Source: Sulfurisphaera ohwakuensis (GTDB lineage Archaea; Thermoproteota; Thermoprotei_A; Sulfolobales; Sulfolobaceae). Taken from it: a stretch of 64,000 nt of DNA. Under the pieces are notes generated by a model. It ran no database searches. It was not told where the DNA came from and saw nothing but the letters and a program-made list of their open reading frames with translations. The position numbers and the translations under genes were made by a program. Where the stretch lies: positions 248,001 to 312,000 of the forward strand of contig NZ_CP045484.1 in NCBI RefSeq assembly GCF_009729055.1. Reading direction: 5' to 3'. Below are positions 32,570 to 32,849 of the stretch, one piece after another; position 1 is the first letter of the stretch; each line of letters opens with the position of its first letter.

Positions 32570-32645
32570 GCGGCCGTCGTCTAGTCTGGATTAGGACGCC
32601 GGCCTCCCAAGCCGGTAATCCCGGGTTCAAATCCCGGCGGCCGCA
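32570..32645 (+). tRNA. tRNA-Gly (anticodon CCC)
   Basis: Acceptor GCGGCCG/CGGCCGC, anticodon stem CCGGC/GCCGG with loop CT-CCC-AA, T-stem CCGGG/CCCGG with TTCAAAT, discriminator A. No intron and no encoded CCA. Its 3' half is the attachment site of a former SSV-type element: the minus-strand reading frame of a viral integrase runs into it. Confidence 0.96.
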
Positions 32646-32849
32646 CTGTGGGGTTAGGGGTATCCCCCTAACACCACCAATTCTATTTTCTTTCAATTTT
32701 ATATAAGTTTCCACAACGTCAACTAAAGGACCCACGTAAGTTTCCTTTACCTCACCGTTCACTGTTTCCAATTTATAGACGTAATACAAACCTTTCCTCT
32801 CGCATATAATATAGTCGCCATATTTATAACGCGTCTTTTATTTCGTCAT
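32601..32849 (-). pseudogene. relic N-terminal fragment of an SSV-type integrase, int(N)
   Basis: Reading the minus strand from the ATG at 32849 gives [16 protein letters not shown], then [25 protein letters not shown] and [11 protein letters not shown], and finally the antisense of the tRNA-Gly 3' half ([12 protein letters not shown]). This lines up with the first about 75 residues of SSV1 integrase as I recall it, including the switch into tRNA-encoded residues. SSV-type elements split their integrase gene on insertion, leaving int(N) at the tRNA. Here codon 4 is TAA (32838-32840), and no int(C) or second att copy is seen within 30 kb to the right, so the element is lost. Codon use (GGC, GAC, GTC, GTG) is richer in G/C than the neighbours. 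Confidence 0.9.
32653..32672. other. 8-bp stem-loop between tRNA-Gly and the int(N) body
   Basis: GTTAGGGG (32653-32660) and CCCCTAAC (32665-32672) form a perfect stem with a 4-nt loop, extendable outward after one mismatch. It lies where the integrase frame reads GVRGIPLTP. It could end tRNA-Gly transcription or be part of the element's attachment region. Confidence 0.5.

Follow-up and report, generated by a model that had tools for sequence, protein, structure and literature searches.

An integration scar at tRNA-Gly(CCC) of Sulfurisphaera ohwakuensis and the probable overwriting of its integrase fragment by recombination

Why should an open reading frame of 108 residues run straight across a tRNA gene? 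The frame in question crosses tRNA-Gly(CCC) in a 64,000-nucleotide stretch of DNA from Sulfurisphaera ohwakuensis (the window; contig NZ_CP045484.1, positions 248,001 to 312,000). The locus was compared in four genomes of the genus, the window's own (G000) and those of three congeners (G028, G029 and G030), and the comparison was extended to a set of 31 Sulfolobaceae genomes (G000 and 30 others). Genes around tRNA-Gly(CCC) are kept in all four Sulfurisphaera genomes. The explanation that we favor, at a probability of roughly 0.78, is that the locus is an integration scar with a later overlay: a mobile element integrated, most of it was deleted, and the core of the remaining N-terminal integrase fragment, int(N), was then overwritten by a homologous tract. 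The components that make up the frame are as follows.

32463..32789, minus strand: 108-residue open reading frame formed by int(N), antisense tRNA and sR20 in series; a mechanical frame, not a gene
32483..32537, minus strand: C/D-box sRNA sR20 (Rfam RF01140, 60.2 bits), downstream of the int(N) frame and on the other side of the tRNA
32570..32646, plus strand (end at 32645 or 32646): tRNA-Gly(CCC), the integration target (attB), whose 3' half is the att core (ARAGORN; Rfam RF00005)
32602..32645, plus strand: 44-bp att core, a perfect direct repeat of the right end of the G029 element (L146 7409-7452), and 43/44 identical to the attP of SSV2, SSV7, SSV Lassen (SSVL) and SSV19
32602..32849, minus strand: int(N), an SSV-type integrase reduced to its N-terminal part; codon 4 (32838-32840) is TAA; from reading frame, tblastn, Pfam and PHROG

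A preliminary description of this DNA had explained the long frame as an integrase relic running into the antisense of a tRNA. Both parts are there, and sR20 is a third component that the explanation has to include. Since the frame is a union of three unrelated features, it was rejected as a real gene.

The int(N) frame starts at 32849 on the minus strand and, past the TAA at codon 4, stays open through the antisense of the tRNA-Gly(CCC) 3' half to 32602, as had been described. With the stop read as X, the fragment matched PF07935 (SSV1_ORF_D-335; E = 7.9e-30), PHROG 23443 (E = 1.4e-21) and the integrase family PHROG 5127 (E = 2.6e-13). By tblastn it was 57-76% identical to the integrases of SSV19, SSV20, SSV21, SSV1, ASV1 and pSSVi, with SSV19 the closest at 76%; the proposed SSV-type integrase N-terminus is thereby confirmed, and a lack of similarity to viral and plasmid integrases, which would have told against it, was not what we found. 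A PDB search with the fragment gave no relevant match. As it stands, the fragment should yield no integrase.

An int(N) remnant that overlaps a tRNA gene is known to mark a former integration; in S. islandicus LAL14/1, 13 insertion remnants lie at tRNA genes (PMC3718332). The splitting of the suicidal integrase, the dead int(N) and int(C) halves, tandem integrations and the exchange of halves via inversions have been reviewed (PMC8371274). Like other remnants of type I (suicidal) integrases in Sulfolobales, the window scar has an N-terminal domain in frame with tRNA antisense and a 44-bp core from the tRNA 3' end, and has lost the body of the element (PMC3718332, PMC8371274). Type II (pNOB8-type) integrases stay intact after integration, whereas the scar keeps no more than the N-terminal domain, into which the att core cuts. 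The window feature is, then, a relic of a known kind, an ordinary integration scar, and is one of the twelve int(N)-type PF07935 fragments of G000, nine of which lie at tRNA genes recognised by ARAGORN. It differs from other type I int(N) remnants in that its core is a recombinant patch and its codon-4 stop is common to other G000 copies. Its interest lies mainly in the full life cycle that can be followed at a single site and in the later recombination between scars.

Similarity to fuselloviruses runs past the int start to about 32953, and the int promoter region has therefore been kept. The DNA upstream of the fragment divides as follows.

32850..32953 (end approximate), minus strand: element DNA upstream of int, similar to fuselloviruses (blastn)
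32867..32899, minus strand: putative remnant of the int promoter, TATA-like TTTTAAAT between inverted GTTGCCA/TGGCAAC copies, a motif common to SSV1, SSV19 and pSSVi
32954..33150, no strand assigned: further residue that ends on the right where the G030 residue does; identity to G030 about 86-94%, compared with 98-100% in the chromosomal flanks

The assignment of 32867..32899 as a promoter remnant is by analogy with SSV1, SSV19 and pSSVi, in which a GTTGCCA copy at -50 and an inverted one at -26 precede the int ATG. In the same three elements the motif recurs at +271/274 beyond attP (L010 1451, 1475, 1772). The copies are candidates for an operator of the int promoter or for Int arm-type sites.

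The preliminary description had also held that int(C) and a second att repeat are missing, and genome-wide searches agree. The sole near copy of the att core in G000 is the paralogous tRNA-Gly(TCC), with 2 mismatches. The one SSV-type int(C) found in G000 belongs to tRNA-Thr(GGT) (G000:1128624), and none was found for tRNA-Gly(CCC); with neither a second core nor an int(C) of its own, the site does not hold a complete integrated SSV-type element. The element remnant at tRNA-Thr(GGT) (L212:828-7901; G000:1128627-1135700) has a truncated int(C) and no int(N) match, and it carries two identical 215-aa open reading frames in opposite orientation that are transposase-like by appearance only. tRNA-Gly(CCC) itself is intact in the present genome.

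Empty and occupied states of the site in relatives establish tRNA-Gly(CCC) as a real integration target, as had been proposed. The G028 site is empty: 13 bp after the tRNA comes sequence that matches window position 33168. The anticodon loop of the G028 tRNA gene (L147:3219-3311) is interrupted by an intron that falls within the att core. The G029 site is occupied: the spacing there is 6.8 kb and includes a 6.3-kb pSSVi-like element, bounded by perfect 44-bp att repeats, with int(N) at L146 1095-1349 and int(C) at 6632-7453 (PF16795, E = 8e-58). The element also holds a 683-aa replication protein and small regulators. This replication protein is 59.5% identical to that of pSSVi (NC_013777), an integrative plasmid of S. 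solfataricus P2 with an SSV-type integrase, which was the only relative of the G029 element in the plasmid collection. The attP of pSSVi matches the 3' end of another tRNA, whereas that of the G029 element matches tRNA-Gly(CCC). No capsid match was found in the G029 element, which has plasmid-type replication genes instead. In G030 and G000 the site holds a short scar, with a common right boundary or deletion end near 33150. The relatives do not keep the frame as a functional gene outside a mobile context, given the element integrated at this tRNA in G029.

Four members of the Fuselloviridae (SSV2, SSV7, SSV Lassen and SSV19) have an attP that equals the tRNA-Gly(CCC) 3' half at 43/44, and the SSV Lassen record annotates tRNA-Gly as the integration site. 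No codon-4 TAA occurs in the integrases compared from these viruses. Since the G029 element at the same tRNA is pSSVi-like, the relic may come from a plasmid or from a virus. In the earlier label of a fusellovirus-type integrase, the SSV-type integrase holds up and the word fusellovirus proves too narrow.

The comparison shows the first two steps of the history. tRNA-Gly(CCC) was entered by a small element that had an SSV-type integrase and, to judge from G029, was most likely pSSVi-like; this happened before G000, G030 and G029 diverged, one integration common to G029 and to G000/G030 being the parsimonious reading. The element's attP recreated the tRNA 3' half, and int was split: int(N) came to lie next to the tRNA, and int(C) at the opposite end of the element. 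In the ancestor of G000 and G030, a deletion then took int(C) together with the rest of the element body, the right att copy and ~80 bp of chromosome, so that int(N) with its promoter was what remained.

Across G000, scars occur at 9 of 22 intronless tRNA genes and at 0 of 17 intron-containing ones (Fisher p = 0.0025), about six further tRNA genes lying outside this count. Randau and Soll (2008), a work cited in PMC3293823, are said to have proposed that tRNA introns shield against integration, and the occurrence of scars at intronless tRNAs only in G000 is in line with that proposal.

Two RNA features lie beyond the scar. Window 33168-33243 on the minus strand is a candidate H/ACA guide RNA (fold z = -3.7; 3' ACA after the closing stem), present as a single copy in 28 of the 31 Sulfolobaceae genomes with a conserved pocket GGCGACA...TCTCCAGAGG, and without an Rfam match at E<=0.1. 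With respect to the metalloprotease-like gene downstream of it, the candidate does not lie on the same strand in this genus as in several other genera. The default call of tRNA-Ser(AGA) at 33291-33382 was rejected; the real identity of this plus-strand gene is tRNA-Phe(GAA) with a 17-nt intron (33330-33346), which the G029 orthologue lacks.

Between the tRNA and the integrase domain, the linker contains one further feature.

32653..32672, no strand assigned: part of the int(N) linker that adjoins the tRNA 3' end; perfect, G-rich palindrome GTTAGGGG(tatc)CCCCTAAC, RNA fold z = -3.45

A palindrome is present on the attP side in SSV1, SSV7, SSVL, SSV19-21, ASV1, pSSVi and most scars, and its arms vary yet remain complementary: 40 of 60 outer cells were complementary, against 23.8 when arms were re-paired (p = 2e-4). 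It is absent from this place in SSV2 (which carries a different linker), SSV3, SSV4, pXZ1 and SSeV, and is therefore not required for integration by all members. In the SSV1 genome, the palindrome is the only GC-rich stem of at least 7 bp under the criteria used. A possible role is that of a tRNA trailer supplied by the element, or of a transcription block.

The preliminary description took the codon-4 TAA as part of the scar. The TAA is present; its reading as decay at this locus does not stand. The identical two-base change, GAT to TAA, occurs at four int(N) copies in G000, at Gly(CCC), Gly(GCC), Val(GAC) and 1732310, of which the last is without its tRNA end and the other three sit at different tRNA genes. 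The variant was found in 0 of the 30 other Sulfolobaceae genomes searched. Moreover, the orthologous G030 scar carries a different variant between near-identical flanks. A plain relic, in which the TAA arose after integration and likeness to other scars reflects related viruses only, would agree with what is seen at tRNAs generally, where int(N) remnants abound and are for the most part degenerate (PMC3718332), but the recurrence of the same change and the state of the G030 orthologue make it most improbable. The TAA is instead shared by descent and was moved by recombination.

The replaced segment at the window locus can be delimited approximately.

32695..32858, minus strand: approximate recombination tract, ~160 bp, codons ~1-50 (triplet test and sliding identity)

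A triplet test of informative sites gave a 163-bp tract (maximum segment child idx 286-448; p = 5e-5 in 20,000 permutations, which assume exchangeable sites); it was preferred to a GENECONV-like run test, which is inflated by conserved blocks. In sliding comparisons of G000 with G030 at Gly(CCC), identity was 98-100% in the flanks, mostly 86-94% in the upstream residue and 64-84% in int(N). At Val(GAC), the corresponding values were 96-100% in the flanks and 58-84% in int(N). The G000 scar is thus orthologous to the G030 scar, but ~160 bp of its int(N) is not. The promoter-side boundary of the tract was found at the window locus. No exact donor was found in the present genome; the nearest copies in the core are 1732310 (92%) and Gly(GCC) (89%). 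The donors may have been either other scars or viruses already carrying the TAA.

The clearest tract was found in G030, where Val(GAC) records non-allelic int(N) recombination bounded on both sides: its flanks resemble an orthologue and its core resembles a paralogue in the same genome. The upstream side is closest to the G000 orthologue, codons 1-52 to G030 Gly(CCC), and the linker by the tRNA to the distant G028 orthologue (p = 5e-5). The sites switch partner on both sides of codons 1-52, and the replaced piece is therefore internal. G030 Val(GAC) and G030 Gly(CCC) differ by 1 nonsynonymous and 0 synonymous changes in 45 codons. A tree of int(N) cores joins G030's copies from Gly(CCC), Val(GAC) and 335374 in one group (support 99%) and unites three copies from G028 in another (support 100%); most scars have their nearest neighbor in their own genome, not at the same tRNA. 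G000 Gly(GCC) and 1732310 are identical over a 216-column alignment stretch. Conversion between scars explains both near-identical pairs, G030 Gly(CCC)/Val(GAC) and G000 Gly(GCC)/1732310.

A role as a retained host gene, for example one for a short DNA-binding protein or a superinfection-exclusion factor, also has to be considered, given that int(N)-type fragments occur in 29 of the 31 Sulfolobaceae genomes and that the Pfam domain is open in most. We regard it as very unlikely: the copies lie at different tRNAs and are often out of frame or truncated, the window copy stops at codon 4, and similarity follows genome, not locus.

Several scars in the four genomes are in a dead frame, and the frame at one tRNA varies between species; int crosses the antisense T-arm in two of three frames (FEP or LNP), and the third gives TGA. 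An altered int start in two G028 scars was considered as a second shared defect and rejected, as GTG-Val-Ser-Pro-Lys reads in frame. In three species, an int(N) is joined to a 3' half that resembles tRNA-Arg(TCG), with no recognisable full tRNA gene (L148, G000:183435-183638; L161; L171). Two tRNA-Val genes of opposite orientation enclose a segment that, from G000 to G029, appears to have been turned round (L176 versus L153), and Val(TAC) now has an int(N) beside it; att cores linked to tRNAs may have recombined there.

Among TAA-bearing copies, dS was 0.34-0.68, dN 0.05-0.16 and dN/dS 0.14-0.26. The differences are mostly synonymous, and much of the divergence therefore arose in a working gene. 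Viral donors, or else exchange limited to very short tracts at the stop, would explain such divergence no less well than conversion from scar to scar does, and since low ratios fit scar and viral donors alike, dN/dS was rejected as an arbiter between them. The TAA may have been passed to different backbones in short tracts; alternatively, an element lineage carried it and integrated repeatedly, for which a later start or Int supplied in trans would be needed.

The latter alternative can be put as serial integration. A second element whose int carried the codon-4 TAA would have entered between the tRNA and the old scar, and recombination between new and old int(N) would have removed it, leaving the new int(N) beside the old upstream residue. 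We hold this possible, though less likely than not. It would account for the G000 linker and frame through the tRNA, which also differ from G029 and G030 at Gly(CCC), and from G028 and G030 at Val(GAC) and Gly(GCC); the dN/dS values of the TAA copies are like those of functional integrases; and both tandem integration of fuselloviruses and recombination between tandem elements have been described (PMC8371274). Against it, the TAA is in none of the virus and plasmid integrases compared, and after the stop the window copy has no ATG, GTG or TTG before residue 21. IMG/VR held no TAA-variant int, a weak objection because that collection yielded one integrase relative only. The ancestral linker and replaced core of G030 Val(GAC) show that internal tracts do occur without a new attP. 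On the favored reading, the third step followed the split of G000 and G030: by recombination, which the comparison shows, a homologous tract of ~160 bp with the TAA replaced the G000 int(N) core. The exchange would belong to a wider recombination between the int(N) copies that lie at various tRNA genes.

In a targeted search of open-licence literature, no paper came up that describes int(N) scars at different tRNAs exchanging tracts, and the term gene conversion is absent from the 2021 review PMC8371274. That review raises the open question of how suicidal integrases keep varying even though integration destroys them. The scar is also a caution: the tRNA beside an int(N) sequence is not enough to date that sequence or to tell which virus it came from. 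One tRNA that is empty, occupied and scarred in sister genomes, together with bounded tracts, makes one answer testable, namely that resident int(N) scars recombine mutually, and possibly with incoming elements too. More speculatively, and in our view with rather low likelihood, int(N) scars would constitute a chromosomal pool that swaps short tracts internally and with newly arriving elements; the result, in each host genome, would be concerted evolution of the N-terminal halves of suicidal integrases. On the same speculation, the palindrome next to attP, with its covarying arms, would allow an arriving element to provide the tRNA that it enters with a folded 3' trailer.
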